DNA from: Candidatus Latescibacterota bacterium
GTDB lineage: Bacteria > JAAXHH01 > JABIQT01
Assembly: GCA_018667995.1 (NCBI GenBank)
Contig: JABIQT010000887.1
Span: 1 to 7,506 of the forward strand
DNA length: 7,506 nucleotides
Direction: 5' to 3'
The position numbers and the translations under genes were made by a program. Below, piece after piece: positions 1 to 7,506 of the stretch. A model generated the notes under the pieces. That model had not been told where the DNA came from. It did no database searches and saw only the letters and a program-made list of their open reading frames with translations. Within the stretch, counting starts at the first letter, position 1. Every line of letters begins with the position of its first letter.

Positions 1-104
1 ATCTTGTCCTGCGTGATACCTGCCTGGACGGTAAATCCCTCGATATTGGTGGTAATCTCGGGAGCCCCCAACCCGACAGCCCGACTATCAAAAACCACAT
101 CTGC
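1..104 (-). pseudogene. Continuation of the secreted-protein frame beyond the amber codon (partial, runs off the left edge)
   Basis: Directly after the TAG at 105-107 the same minus-strand frame stays open for 34 codons to the window edge. It begins ADVVFDSRAV and continues with alternating hydrophobic residues. Read with Gln in place of the stop, the junction becomes PVAGLQADVVFDSRAVGLG. That is the usual pattern of the first strands of cohesin-like domains (a V-x-G-h-Q-h-D-h strand followed by a D-x-x-x-h-x-h-G turn). TAG differs from the Gln codon CAG by one transition. The stretch is therefore best read as the severed C-terminal part of the upstream gene, through a nonsense mutation, a sequencing error or amber read-through. 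No independent start codon with a ribosome site is seen in it. Confidence 0.6.
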
Positions 105-2315
105 CTACAGGCCGGCCACGGGTCCATTGGTGTCCATGACCAAGGGAATCACACGATTTCCATCGGGCATGGTAACTGGTGCCTCCAGGGACAGATATAT
201 CTGACTAGGAGGGTTCGTCACTGCAACTGGCCTGGTCACGATATCCAGCACCATGTTGATCTGCTTTACCACATCCAACACGTTCAGTCTGAGATCTCCA
301 TTCAGATCGGACGCATGAAAGAGAGGCGACTCTTCCGATGGGGTTGGATCTGTGCGTACAATGATCCGCACGAGCGTGATTACATCGAGAATATCGAAAC
401 CACCACTCTCGTCCAAATCCCCTCGCAGAATCGCTCTGCCCAAAACAGGAATCTCGAGAACAGGAAGAGAGGGATCGTTACTCTCGACGAATATCGTGTC
501 CGCGAATACCCCAGACTCATTGGGTGTGAACGCCGCGAGCAATGCCACACTGTCTCCCACGGCAGCGAATGCCGTTGAATCAGAGATGTTGAATGGTCCT
601 CCTGCCAAGGTCAACCGATTTACTTCGAGATCCCCGGTTCCGAGGTTCTGAAGCCAGAAAACCAAAGCGGTCTCTTCTCCGACGCCGGTGAAACCGAAAT
701 CCAAGTTGCCCGGAGTCGTAGCGATGGACGGTGTTCCCGGAACCGGCGAGATCTGTCCCCACCACGTACCCCATCGATCCGTAGACTGAACAGGCTCCTC
801 CGCATACTGCTGAACGGTCCAGAAGCTTGAATCATCCAGAGGATCAACCACCGTATTGCTGTAATCGCCCCAGCGATTTCGACCTGATCCGAACGTTTTT
901 ACATACTTGGCTTCCCCCTCTTTCAAGACCGTGTCGTCCTGCAGGGTGTTCAAGAGGTCACCGCCCGCACGAAATGCGTAATTGGCAGAAACGAACTGAT
1001 CAGACGCAAAGCGGGAATACCCTATGAGAGCATCATCGTTCTCATTCACCGCGATGGAGGGAAAGGCAAAGTATCTGTTGCCTGTCGGGTCATCGATACG
1101 TCCACGCTGCACAACGGATCCAATCGGACTGATCTCCCACCACTGGACCGCACTGCGCGTCGGCCCCGACTCAGGCAAAAAGATGGTATGGGTGCCCCAG
1201 ATGGAACCGTTCCGGTAGACCGCATTTTGCATACGAGAATCATTGGTCATAATACCTGTACTACTACCAGCCTGCGGGGCGAAATTGTTGTGGGGAGGAT
1301 CGTCCGCCCAGACGTCTGCAGTTGTGACGAAGGCCACATCCTGAGTGTATACTTCGTCACCCACGGGACCGGATATGGTTGTGAGTCTTAGAAGTCCCTG
1401 GCCATCCTCATTCCCTATCCAATTCTCGATCAGGTACATCGTCGAAAGTGTATCATCATAAGTTATGGCGGGCACCTGGCTGAAACCGTCTGAAAAATCC
1501 TGAAACAGCGTAAAGAGGCCGGAACCTCCAGAATACAGGTCCCCTTTGTCAAATACATAGATATTAGATCCCGTGTAATCACTGCCCACAACCGTGAACA
1601 TATTCACCTGGACAACGATCCAGTCCTTGTTGTAGCCGATGCTGGGATAGTCTGCCCACCCCAAATTGCTGGCGTCCGCGTCCACACGATAGATATTCCA
1701 GACTCCAGTTGGATCGCTTGTTTGGGAAACGGCGATAAGTATAGAGGATGTAGCAAATGCCGGATCGGCCATGACTGTAAACATCCAGCGTCCAGACATA
1801 TGATCGTAGAGGATCTTCGGATCGAAGGGACGTCGATCAAAAAACCCCGCCCAAAAGGTACTCAGAGAGACGGTGCTGATGACACTGCTATTCCGGTCCT
1901 GTATCCTGACTTCCGTATTGAGCGTGACCATCACGTGGTTGGGTCCAACGGCTCCGTGCGTATCAGGGGGAATGGACGAGTTATTGTCCCCAAGAGCAGG
2001 AAAGCTGGCCACCAATGACGGCACGATGCCGGACGAGGCCTCTGGTGTGCTGGCCTTATGCGGCATTGCAGGCTCTGGATCTCCTGATCGTTGGGGTAAT
2101 TCCAATGGAGAACGTCGGCTCGGGCCCGGTTGCGGTGGATGGACTTCGAAAGGCCGATTCACGGGATTGATAGGCAGAAATCTGGATCTGACAGCCGATT
2201 CCACATGTATCGTCCCAGCAGCATTGGCTGTAAGCCGCTGGCCGGTAATGGCCGTTTGCCCGTAGGCGGCACCAACTGGCATTGCAATGAAGAGAAACAG
2301 CAGCAGCATTTTCAT
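105..2315 (-). CDS. Secreted modular protein: propeller-like region, choice-of-anchor-D-like domain, dockerin-like repeats; ends at an in-frame amber codon
   Basis: Probably an exported or surface protein; no enzymatic function is recognised. Numbering is from the ATG at 2315 (736 residues). A Sec signal peptide spans about 1-20 (MKMLLLFLFIAMPVGAAYGQ). A proline-rich linker reaches about 95. A large region, about 100-525, is rich in Trp, Gly and Asp. It opens with PPDTHGAVG, a motif I associate with large secreted bacterial proteins, and may be a beta-propeller. Residues about 528-629 (LDFGFTGVGE, VESNDPSLP) resemble choice-of-anchor-D/ASH immunoglobulin-like domains. Two dockerin-type calcium loops follow: D633, D635, S637, D641, D644 and D670, N672, D674, N678, D681. 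A cohesin-like beta domain starts near 704 but is cut by TAG at 105-107. A GTG three codons upstream (2324) is the alternative start; neither has a visible Shine-Dalgarno. The frame stays open past the TAG, so the intact gene was probably longer. Confidence 0.8.
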   Translation of the reverse strand: MKMLLLFLFIAMPVGAAYGQTAITGQRLTANAAGTIHVESAVRSRFLPINPVNRPFEVHPPQPGPSRRSPLELPQRSGDPEPAMPHKASTPEASSGIVPSLVASFPALGDNNSSIPPDTHGAVGPNHVMVTLNTEVRIQDRNSSVISTVSLSTFWAGFFDRRPFDPKILYDHMSGRWMFTVMADPAFATSSILIAVSQTSDPTGVWNIYRVDADASNLGWADYPSIGYNKDWIVVQVNMFTVVGSDYTGSNIYVFDKGDLYSGGSGLFTLFQDFSDGFSQVPAITYDDTLSTMYLIENWIGNEDGQGLLRLTTISGPVGDEVYTQDVAFVTTADVWADDPPHNNFAPQAGSSTGIMTNDSRMQNAVYRNGSIWGTHTIFLPESGPTRSAVQWWEISPIGSVVQRGRIDDPTGNRYFAFPSIAVNENDDALIGYSRFASDQFVSANYAFRAGGDLLNTLQDDTVLKEGEAKYVKTFGSGRNRWGDYSNTVVDPLDDSSFWTVQQYAEEPVQSTDRWGTWWGQISPVPGTPSIATTPGNLDFGFTGVGEETALVFWLQNLGTGDLEVNRLTLAGGPFNISDSTAFAAVGDSVALLAAFTPNESGVFADTIFVESNDPSLPVLEIPVLGRAILRGDLDESGGFDILDVITLVRIIVRTDPTPSEESPLFHASDLNGDLRLNVLDVVKQINMVLDIVTRPVAVTNPPSQIYLSLEAPVTMPDGNRVIPLVMDTNGPVAGL

Positions 2316-2406
2316 ACTAGGCACTATGGGTTCGTATGGTTCTTGAGGAAGAAACGGGGACTCAATCAGGTCGGGGTACTCAAATCAACATACGGCAGAA
2401 CACGCT

Positions 2407-2525: not shown

Positions 2526-3227
2526 TCAAATGCCCAGATCCATGGGAAGGGCTCGTTTGATTTGAATCTGCTGAGGAGAGACGGTGGCCTCGTAGACCAG
2601 AATCTCCACGCCTTCCCGATAGGCCTCTCGCAATGTCGAACCATAGACTGGATCGACTGAATCTTCGGGCCGGAAAATGCTACAGTCCGATCGTTGCACG
2701 AAGTAGAACATGACCGATCGATTTCCCTGGCCGACCTGATTGATCAGTTCACGAAGATGCTTCGTTCCGCGCTCTGTCACGGCATCCGGAAACATCGCTA
2801 TTTGCCCACGGGCTAGAGTAACATTCTTAACTTCCACGAAACATGTATGATCGGTACCACGCAGCCATACATCAATGCGGCTGTTCTCGCCATACTTTAC
2901 CTCGCGCCGCATTTCGTGGTAACCGGACAGCTCAGGGATCGTTCCACGCTCAATGGCTTCATATACGATCCTGTTGGGATGGCCCGTATTTATGCCCACC
3001 CACGCACGCCCCACACGAACCATTTCCCATGTGAATTTGAGCTTGCGCTTGGGGTTATCCTGACGAGACAGGTACACCCGGCTGCCTGCCCGTTGGCAGC
3101 CCTCCATACTCCCGGAATTGGCGCAGTGCGCTGTAATTATGCGACCATCATCGAGTTCAACATCTGCAAGAAAGCGCTTGTAACGCTTAACTAGCCTGCC
3201 TGGGAGTAATTCTTCTTCGAATTTCAT
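2526..3227 (-). CDS. sfsA: DNA/RNA nuclease-fold protein SfsA (sugar fermentation stimulation protein family)
   Basis: This is a cytoplasmic nucleic-acid-binding protein of the SfsA family. The family was named for stimulation of maltose metabolism in E. coli and carries an OB-like N-terminal region followed by a PD-(D/E)xK-type nuclease fold. The 233 residues match the usual full length. Recognisable blocks, in order, are RYKRFLADVELDDG (15-28), HCANSGSM (34-41), SGYHEMRREVKYG (101-113), the RID motif with acidic D119, the EVK motif (132-134, the expected metal-site Glu and Lys), FPDAVTERGTKHLRELI (146-162) and EGVEILVYEA (205-214). The putative catalytic residues D119, E132 and K134 are all present, so the protein looks intact. 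The ATG overlaps the mutY stop as ATGA, and no separate Shine-Dalgarno is visible, so translation is probably coupled to mutY. Its physiological role remains poorly defined across the family. Confidence 0.95.
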   Translation of the reverse strand: MKFEEELLPGRLVKRYKRFLADVELDDGRIITAHCANSGSMEGCQRAGSRVYLSRQDNPKRKLKFTWEMVRVGRAWVGINTGHPNRIVYEAIERGTIPELSGYHEMRREVKYGENSRIDVWLRGTDHTCFVEVKNVTLARGQIAMFPDAVTERGTKHLRELINQVGQGNRSVMFYFVQRSDCSIFRPEDSVDPVYGSTLREAYREGVEILVYEATVSPQQIQIKRALPMDLGI

Positions 3228-4390
3228 GGCGTCTGAGGAGAAACGGACACAAATCGGTCACGTAGCCCGGTATGTTTGTCGGATCGCAGGAAATCAATGA
3301 GCCTGGAGTGCGCTCGTGAGAATGCGAATTTCGTCAATTGGTCAAAAGGAACCCATCGGTAATTATCCGATGTCTGCGCATCCAGGCTATCGGAAGTCAA
3401 ATGACAGATAAATCCATGTAGCGTTATTCGAAAGTGCGTAAATGCGTGAGACACCTGGGGAAGATCCTGAACAATGGAGATCGCCAGTCCGGTGGTACCC
3501 AGTACGCTCCGGACGACACCGTCAACAAGCGACTCTTCTCCCTCGCGATTGCCGCCGGGAAACTCCCACAGTCCACCGAGAAGACCATCCATAGGTCGCT
3601 GGACAATCAGGATCCGGTCATCATTGACCACCAAACCCGCCAGGACGTCCCGATGGGGCCTCTCCTTCCTGGGAGCTTTCTTGGGAAGAATGGAAGGATC
3701 GCTCAATAACGCTTGAGCCTTACAATATCTCATTACCGGGCAAAACTCGCAGACGGGATTCCGTGGAAGGCACACAGTGGCACCCAGTTCCATCATCGCC
3801 TGATTGAAGTCGGCGGCACGTCCCGGTACCAGAAGTGTATCGGCCAGCCACTGTAGACGACGCTTGACCGGCGTTCTTGATACTAAATCCTCGATACGGA
3901 AAAGACGGCTCAGTACCCGGATTACGTTTCCATCCACAGCCGCATGGTCTTTGTTATAAGCTATGCTGAGTATCGCGGCAGCCGTATAGGGCCCAATACC
4001 GGGCAAGCCTCCAATTTCTATCGGATCGGATGGTATCCGGCCCCCATACTCCGACACAATCCTGATGGCAGCCCTGTGAGCATTACGTGCACGGGCATAG
4101 TATCCGAGACCTTCCCACGACTTGAGGACCTCATCTATAGATGCCTCGGCCAGAGCCTGCACTGTGGGGAAACGAGCCATGAACCTATCATAGTAGGGTC
4201 GGGCCTGATCCACACGCGTCTGCTGCAGTAGCATCTCTGAGATCCATACGGAATAGGGATCGTCGTTTCGCCGCCAGGGCAGGTCCCGTTGGTGTACCGA
4301 ATACCATTTAAGGATCCTCCGACGAAAACCAGCTACCTCGTCAACAGTAAGGCCGGATGGTGACTTTTCGGGAGACGCAGCCTGGGACAA
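3224..4390 (-). CDS. mutY: Adenine DNA glycosylase MutY with C-terminal NUDIX-like domain
   Basis: MutY removes adenine mispaired with 8-oxoguanine, preventing G:C to T:A transversions. The 388 residues compare with 350 in E. coli; the extra length is about 15 residues at the N-terminus plus part of the C-terminal domain. The HhH-GPD glycosylase domain covers about 20-225. It shows SEMLLQQT with catalytic E52, GLGYYARARN with Y97, the helix-hairpin-helix GGLPGIGPYTAAAI (127-140) and catalytic D153 in AVDGNV. The [4Fe-4S] ligands C207, C214, C217 and C223 form CX6CX2CX5C. A NUDIX-like 8-oxoG-recognition domain follows from about 247, with VSHAFTHF (313-320) in the place of the FSH recognition loop, so all key residues are present. 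The start is TTG, chosen because AAGGA lies six bases upstream and no better start precedes FRRRILKWYS. It lies 42 bases after the symporter gene and overlaps sfsA by four bases. Confidence 0.96.
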   Translation of the reverse strand: MSQAASPEKSPSGLTVDEVAGFRRRILKWYSVHQRDLPWRRNDDPYSVWISEMLLQQTRVDQARPYYDRFMARFPTVQALAEASIDEVLKSWEGLGYYARARNAHRAAIRIVSEYGGRIPSDPIEIGGLPGIGPYTAAAILSIAYNKDHAAVDGNVIRVLSRLFRIEDLVSRTPVKRRLQWLADTLLVPGRAADFNQAMMELGATVCLPRNPVCEFCPVMRYCKAQALLSDPSILPKKAPRKERPHRDVLAGLVVNDDRILIVQRPMDGLLGGLWEFPGGNREGEESLVDGVVRSVLGTTGLAISIVQDLPQVSHAFTHFRITLHGFICHLTSDSLDAQTSDNYRWVPFDQLTKFAFSRAHSRLIDFLRSDKHTGLRDRFVSVSPQTP

Positions 4391-4396
4391 AATGAA

Positions 4397-4401
4397 TCCT
4401 T
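4397..4401 (-). promoter_or_regulatory. Ribosome binding site that fixes the TTG start of mutY
   Basis: The minus strand reads AAGGA, then six bases, then TTG (4390-4388). This is the best-spaced Shine-Dalgarno in the minus-strand cluster and supports the non-ATG start. It sits in the 42-base spacer after the symporter stop. Confidence 0.6.
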
Positions 4402-4432
4402 AGCAGGGGATCTCGGTGGACGAAACTTACGC

Positions 4433-5782
4433 CTAACCTACACGGCGAGCGCCCATGTAGCGTCGCGTTTCAGAGGCAACAACTCCGGACAGCGCGATCA
4501 GACCAATTAGATTGGGAGCGGCCATAAGGCCGTTGGTCAGGTCGGAAAAAGTCCAGACGAGATCCAATCTTGTGACGGCTCCAATTCCTACAAAAACACA
4601 GAACACTAGCCGATAGGGAAGCGCCGCTCGATCGCCCAGAAGATAAACGATGGACTTCTCACCGTAATAGCTCCATCCCAGGACAGTCGAGTAGGCAAAG
4701 AGGACTAGCCCGACGGCGACGATAATTCCGCCATTGGTCCCCGGCAGGCCTGCCGAGAATGCGGCAGCAGTCAACGGTGCGCCTGTTTCGCCGCTTGCCC
4801 AAACCCCTGTGCCAATAATAGCAAAACCCGTAAGTGTGCAAACGACGAGGGTGTCAATAAACGTCTGGGTCATGGAGACCAGGGCTTGAGTCACAGGATC
4901 ACGGGTCTGTGCTGCAGCTGCGGCGATTCCGGCACTTCCCAATCCGGATTCATTCGAGAAGACACCCCGCGCTACGCCCATCTGAATTGCCATTCTAACA
5001 GTCGCACCCGCAAATCCCCCCGATGCAGCGGCAGGTGTGAAGGCATGGGAAAAAACCAGACTCAGTATTTCGGGTACTTTCGATATATTGTAGATTAATA
5101 GCAGAATTGCGCCCACCATGTAGAAGACAATCATGGCCGGAACAATAACGCTGGTAACACGGCCGATGCTTTTGATTCCGCCGATGATTACGAGTCCGGT
5201 CAGAGCAGCCAGGCCCAGCCCCGTTGCCCATTGAGGCACCTCAAACGTCGAAAAGAGAACATCCGCCACCGAATTAGACTGGGTCATATTCCCGATACCA
5301 AAAGAGGCCAGCACAGCGAAAAGTGCGAACGCGGCGCCAAGCTTGGGCCAACCTAGACCATTGGCCAGGTAATACATGGGACCGCCCCGCATAAGACCTG
5401 ACTCGTCCGACTCCCTGTACTTCACAGATAGCACGGCTTCTGCGTACTTGGTAGCCATCCCAACGAGGCCTGTTATCCACATCCAGAACAGCGCCCCCGG
5501 GCCCCCTGCAGCAATGGCCGTTGCCACTCCTGCGATGTTTCCCGTCCCCACCGTGGCAGCCAGAGCCGTCATGAGCGCCTGAAAATGACTGATATCTCCT
5601 TCGGCATCGTCGTCTTTTCGCTTAATAAAGGCCAGGTGCAACGAATGAAATATGGTCGTAAACTGCAGGCCCTTTAGGCGAACAGTAAGAAACAGGCCCG
5701 TTCCGACAAGGAGCACCAGCAACGGAACGCCCCAGACAAAGTCCCTCATTGCCGTGACTACGGTGAGTATCTGCTCCTGCAT
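4433..5782 (-). CDS. Sodium:alanine/glycine symporter, AGCS family
   Basis: This is an inner-membrane secondary transporter that imports small neutral amino acids (alanine, glycine, possibly D-alanine) with sodium or protons. The relatives are AlsT, YaaJ and DagA; the substrate cannot be read from sequence. From the ATG at 5782 it has 449 residues, the normal family length. Diagnostic blocks are [19 protein letters not shown] (about 72-90), [16 protein letters not shown] (93-108) followed by [22 protein letters not shown] (133-139) and [15 protein letters not shown] (277-291). About 10-11 hydrophobic helices fill the rest. The frame is open upstream to a TTG at 5893, but those 37 residues are hydrophilic and unlike the family. 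The ATG has GGAA seven bases upstream and opens directly before the first helix, so I chose it. It ends TAG GCG TAA, two stops one codon apart. It is the first gene of the presumed symporter-mutY-sfsA unit. Confidence 0.93.
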
Positions 5783-5828
5783 GGCGTGTTTCCAAGGTAG
5801 TTGTAATTGTGGTGTATTGTGGCTGACG

Positions 5829-5857
5829 AAACTACGCCGGCGTGGAATCGATGTCAA
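5829..5857 (-). promoter_or_regulatory. Promoter candidate for the symporter-mutY-sfsA unit
   Basis: The minus strand has a perfect TTGACA (5857-5852), a 17-base spacer and TAGTTT (5834-5829). Transcription would start near 5822, giving a leader of about 40 bases before the ATG at 5782. The -10 box is poor for sigma-70 (3 of 6). Read as TAGTTTCG it fits the Bacteroidota TAnnTTTG pattern at 5 of 6 fixed positions, with TTG 20 bases upstream as that class expects. This promoter would lie inside the unlikely N-terminal extension of the symporter, which further favours the shorter gene. Confidence 0.45.
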
Positions 5858-5974
5858 TTTCTTTGTTGGCCGAGAAAAGTGTCCGTGCACCAAGTATCTA
5901 TTTCAAAATTGGCTTCGCCTGAATCCGTTCATCTTAGACCGTGATGGAAGGCCTAAACCCTTGTGCCACCGCGA

Positions 5975-7222: not shown

Positions 7223-7506
7223 ATGAAATCGCTGAAATTCTGGCCTGTCAAGACGCTGCTTCTTATTGGAGTCATTATGGTCTCCATTACGACAGCGCAA
7301 CCCGCCTCAACGAACACTGTAGAGCAACTGTTTCCCGTAAACCTTAAAGCCAAGTGGGGGTTCATGAATCCATCTGGCGAGATGGTGATCACGAATCGAT
7401 TTCGGCAAGCACAGCGCTTTGCCGATGGTCTGGCCGCAGTTCAGATAGGTGTTAAGTGGGGTTTCGTTGATGCAACAGGTAAGGTGGTCATCAAACAACA
7501 GTTCAA
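7223..7506 (+). CDS. Secreted WG-repeat protein (partial, runs off the right edge)
   Basis: The ATG at 7223 is preceded by GAGG six bases upstream (7213-7216), one of the clearer Shine-Dalgarno sites here. The frame is open to the window end (94 codons plus two bases). A signal peptide covers about residues 1-25: a basic MKSLKFWPVK start, then LLLIGVIMVSITTAQ. Two WG repeats then follow 34 residues apart: AKWGFMNPSGEMVI with W45-G46 and VKWGFVDATGKVVI with W79-G80. Each shows the usual pattern K-W-G-F-h-[ND]-x-x-G-x-h-V-I, and RFADGLAAVQ separates them. In this family such repeats typically continue in series; no enzymatic role is established. It is probably periplasmic or surface-exposed. 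The next gene cannot be seen. Confidence 0.85.
   Translation, partial: MKSLKFWPVKTLLLIGVIMVSITTAQPASTNTVEQLFPVNLKAKWGFMNPSGEMVITNRFRQAQRFADGLAAVQIGVKWGFVDATGKVVIKQQF

Follow-up and report, generated by a model that had tools for sequence, protein, structure and literature searches.

A gene for a large secreted protein in a Latescibacterota genome contains an in-frame amber codon (TAG, positions 105-107, minus strand), which probably reflects a recent single-base nonsense change, real in the cells, in a gene for a T9SS cargo protein. We put the probability of this reading at about 0.56 and favour it over a base error in the sequence. Most likely the explanation is an ordinary one: a single substitution, whether real or artefactual, created a premature stop, and nothing points to recoding. 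The gene would be a broken copy, or the product of a sequencing error, rather than a case of novel decoding. The organism comes from an order of the Latescibacterota, a phylum in the FCB group. The stretch of DNA analysed here (the window) is the complete contig C967 with its 7506 bases, from a genome bin that comprises 1165 contigs, totals 6.06 Mb and is 85% complete. Since the window is the entire contig, the gene frame is not traceable beyond position 1. The gene, which lies on the minus strand, is laid out as follows:

108..2324, minus strand: 739-codon frame of the secreted protein (start GTG at 2324 or ATG at 2315; orthologues at 47-56% identity)
744..2027, minus strand: beta-propeller-like region, limits approximate (AlphaFold2 model and weak PDB fold matches)
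468..716, minus strand: Ig-like domain of the HYDIN/CFA65/VesB type (PF22544, 36 bits, cut-off 25.5)
252..422, minus strand: pair of dockerin-like repeats (PF00404, 15-18.1 bits, under the cut-off of 22.9)
108..200, minus strand: first strands of the cohesin-like domain, ahead of the stop (alignment with paralogues and relatives)
105..107, minus strand: premature amber, in-frame TAG (column with Q, E or H in 26 homologues, W in the best full-length homologue)
3..104, minus strand: 34 open codons up to the contig end, in which the cohesin-like domain goes on (homology score and gene-like codon usage)

The initial annotation had described a secreted-protein frame ending at TAG 105-107 with 34 sense codons beyond it, and both the coordinates and the translation agree with this. 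The 739-codon frame (2324-108) is closed by the TAG after ...VMDTNGPVAGL, and past it the 34 codons (104-3; ADVVFDSRAVGLGAPEITTNIEGFTVQAGITQDK) stay open up to the contig end, so that the stop falls within the first strands of the cohesin-like domain. At its N-terminus the protein has a signal-peptide-like segment, which is followed by the beta-propeller-like region. For the latter, AlphaFold2 gave a mean pLDDT of 73, and the fold matches in the PDB (sialidase/propeller) reached a TM of about 0.35 only; a search of solved structures by sequence gave nothing significant. The designation "cohesin-like" holds weakly. PF00963 scores 13.9-18.8 bits (E 0.0019-0.06) against intact relatives, under the Pfam cut-off of 24.1, and does not match the fragment in the window. 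The resemblance to cohesin (PF00963) and type I dockerin (PF00404) consists of a weak profile similarity and of a dockerin-like part followed by a cohesin-like part in one chain. It ends where both parts remain under the Pfam cut-offs, and where the two are paired in one chain beside a sorting domain, instead of being divided between an enzyme with dockerin and a scaffoldin with cohesin.

The open stretch past the TAG is more than a product of chance. Against a profile built from 26 homologues, with the window left out, the 34 codons scored 16.6 bits, while the best of 1000 shuffles reached 5.7. Their codon usage is gene-like, with a score per codon of 0.293 after the stop and 0.246 before it, compared to 0.158 +/- 0.106 for genes; the open stretches that follow other TAGs score -0.094. 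An equally long open and comparably coding-like sequel follows only one of 230 other gene-ending stops (626 kb). In a leave-one-out comparison, the residues after the stop and the orthologue in the genome G011 both lie at the low end of the family (13.8 and 10.8 bits). The low score thus need not mean decay, and it fits the divergence of this group of proteins. Since the 34 codons are both homologous and coding-like, the lesion should be recent.

That glutamine is expected at the position of the stop, as had been proposed, is confirmed by the alignment of 26 homologous domains, which were drawn from the source genome and three genomes of the same order. The column contains Q in 19, E in five and H in two of them, and the Gln codon is CAG in 17 of the 19 cases. 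The best full-length homologue, though, has W (TGG) here. The proposed path from CAG to TAG by one transition stands, and TGG to TAG is equally one transition. None of the 26 homologues ends at this column; all run on with a sense codon. A gene naturally ending at TAG 105-107 was therefore rejected. The stop is present in neither of two orthologues, which are uninterrupted frames of 986 codons (relative G011, contig C92) and 918 codons (G001, a relative in the same order, contig C185) with 47-56% identity and a T9SS sorting domain at the end; one has W at the position and the other is without the region. In the G001 orthologue (JACQVL010000238.1, 3881-6616) nearly all of the cohesin-like domain has been lost in frame and the sorting domain has been kept. 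The record JACQVL010000238.1 (Candidatus Latescibacterota bacterium) contains a frame identical to this 918-codon orthologue. A single scan of genome contigs for same-species records gave one distant match and one homologue, the latter from another species of the order.

What the stop would cost the protein is suggested by its relatives. In these, the cohesin-like part is followed by a type A sorting domain (TIGR04183, 33.8 bits, cut-off 23), and a sorting domain (TIGR04183/PF18962) is present in both orthologues and most paralogues; that of the window gene would lie beyond the contig end. The source genome contains 40 matches to the domain pair or to parts of it, and one T9SS component, PorU, is encoded at C1024:2101-5313 (model NF033707, 783 bits, cut-off 420). 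In Bacteroidota, export by the T9SS requires the sorting domain, which also suffices for it (PMC10202324). The window gene resembles genes for type A cargo in its signal peptide, its long multidomain passenger, the sorting domain that ends both orthologues and the presence of PorU in the genome. It differs in that the stop would precede the predicted sorting domain, itself expected beyond the contig end. Because relatives run on through the cohesin-like part to the sorting domain and the genome encodes PorU, the stop should remove the export signal.

We propose that a single substitution, CAG to TAG or TGG to TAG, may have created a premature amber in this large cargo gene. With an intact RF1, ribosomes would terminate at TAG 105-107, and the product would be without the last three quarters of the cohesin-like domain; judged by homology, it would also lack the type A C-terminal sorting domain. 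Such a truncated protein would reach the periplasm by means of its signal peptide and would not be moved on to the surface, and the allele is probably null or nearly so. This is the main consequence missed by the initial annotation, which had considered a short dockerin-ended form and a long form with dockerin and cohesin parts: the short form would be without its export signal.

Of the three origins considered at the outset, a nonsense mutation and an assembly error stay in play, while read-through is unsupported in view of an ordinary TAG, an intact RF1, the absence of PylS and of RNA structure, and orthologues without the stop. Indeed, TAG is a normal terminator in the source genome. Among 228 long frames (633 kb), TGA terminates 86, TAG 80 and TAA 62, and the next in-frame stop follows after a median of 13 codons for TGA and 17 for both TAG and TAA. 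This stop usage led us to reject amber recoding on a genome-wide scale, in agreement with the earlier view, which had argued from the symporter gene in the window; its stop is a TAG with a backup TAA as described (TAG GCG TAA). The gene for RF1 (prfA) scores far above the cut-off and its frame is uninterrupted; a TAA reported within the match is probably its terminal stop and does not lie inside the translated frame. Pyrrolysine decoding was rejected, since the profile search of the source genome for PylS found none (20.6 bits, cut-off 178). A stimulating RNA structure was rejected as well, the 107 nt available after the stop showing no excess over shuffles (z = 0.35). The suggested check for amber suppressor tRNAs gave no CUA anticodon among 29 tRNA matches, a set that is incomplete, as tRNAs for Tyr, Ile, Lys, Asn and Trp are missing too. 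Taken together, programmed or suppressed read-through and recoding find no support. The locus shares with amber read-through, suppressor-tRNA and pyrrolysine decoding an in-frame UAG with conserved sequence beyond it; unlike in those systems, no decoding machinery was found, the stop is unconserved and TAG is a widespread terminator.

It is nevertheless worth asking what a leaky amber would mean. The UAG would partly be read as Gln or Trp, so that a short form would stay in the periplasm and a long one would be exported by the T9SS. The conserved, coding-like continuation would suit this, and a suppressor could be missed in an incomplete tRNA set. However, apart from the decoding results above, the orthologues are without the stop, and the stops seen in further cargo genes vary in both kind and position, which makes the idea very unlikely in our opinion. 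Even less credible is its extended form, in which a periplasmic protein without sorting domain would be accompanied by low-level suppressed full-length export, the leakiness would set the surface dose of the cargo, and the scattered single stops in G011 cargo genes would be additional examples. Hardly better placed is the idea of a settled new C-terminus, according to which the truncated protein would function with neither a cohesin-like nor a sorting domain and the codons beyond the stop would be a fading remnant. The loss of the cohesin-like domain from the G001 orthologue implies that this domain is expendable, but that orthologue retains its sorting domain, and the 34 codons after the stop are without decay.

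A sequence or assembly error deserves more weight and is quite possible, if less probable than a real change. In that case the codon in the cells would encode an amino acid (most likely CAG), and the TAG would stem from a base-calling error or from a strain variant misjoined at the poorly supported tip of the contig. Internal stops in assemblies are often coverage artefacts (PMC11017572), spurious ones being a known result of low coverage, and several observations point in this direction or speak against a real mutation: a distance of 105 bp separates the stop from the end of a contig in a fragmented bin, a place more prone to base errors, the stretch past the TAG bears no sign of decay, the other 39 domain-pair matches in the source genome are without an internal stop, and the other genes of the window look intact. 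On the other hand, the bin contains no second copy of the contig-end sequence and thus no sign of a chimera, and a chimeric contig end was rejected on this basis; comparable stops in G011 are far from contig ends. An attempt at leftward extension found no other significant match to the contig-end sequence in the genome and no end overlap among 100 contigs. Contig C569 also starts in this domain and was set aside as the missing end, its sequence being different. Two further contigs of the source genome begin inside a sorting domain (C1080:3-248 and C1130:4593-4829) and are candidates for the missing C-terminal end; nothing links either to the gene. With nonsense pseudogenes and spurious assembly stops (PMC11017572) the locus shares a lone internal stop, for which a single substitution suffices, in a frame that is conserved and elsewhere intact; it differs in that it comes from a metagenome bin and not from an isolate, and may be real or artefactual.

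Returning to the recent nonsense change, similar interruptions are present in other cargo genes. In G011, a TAA occurs in frame where F/Y is expected, just before the sorting domain (C3, within 3066-3734), a TAG where F/Y is expected near the C-terminus (C53, within 1554-1757), and a TAG before a dockerin-like part (C97, near 10511). These stops are single, have family sequence on both sides and are well inside their contigs; they also come from metagenome bins. Since they lie well inside contigs, real lesions in cargo genes may be common enough. An internal-stop case in G013 (C20) is a frameshifted remnant. An excess of TAG over other stops in the cargo family was rejected, as four genomes contain few internal stops, among which all three kinds occur. 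A real stop at 105-107 would be a further case of an inactivated surface-cargo allele in a lineage without cultured members and would suggest that individual T9SS cargo proteins can be dispensed with; an erroneous one would warn against drawing biological conclusions from stops close to a contig end. A wider interest would arise only under the unlikely read-through reading.

Two observations apart from the stop may be added. Type A sorting-domain cargo has been described as restricted to Bacteroidota (review PMC10202324), and our literature search on T9SS in Latescibacterota found no paper; contrary to this description, the genome from this order of the Latescibacterota encodes a PorU-type sortase and dozens of cargo frames with type A sorting domains. 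In the window itself, positions 2526-5893 encode SfsA, a MutY-type glycosylase with a NUDIX domain and a sodium:alanine symporter, all sharing the strand of the interrupted gene and seemingly intact, and at 7223-7506 begins a protein with a signal peptide and WG repeats (PF14903), which is cut by the right contig end.
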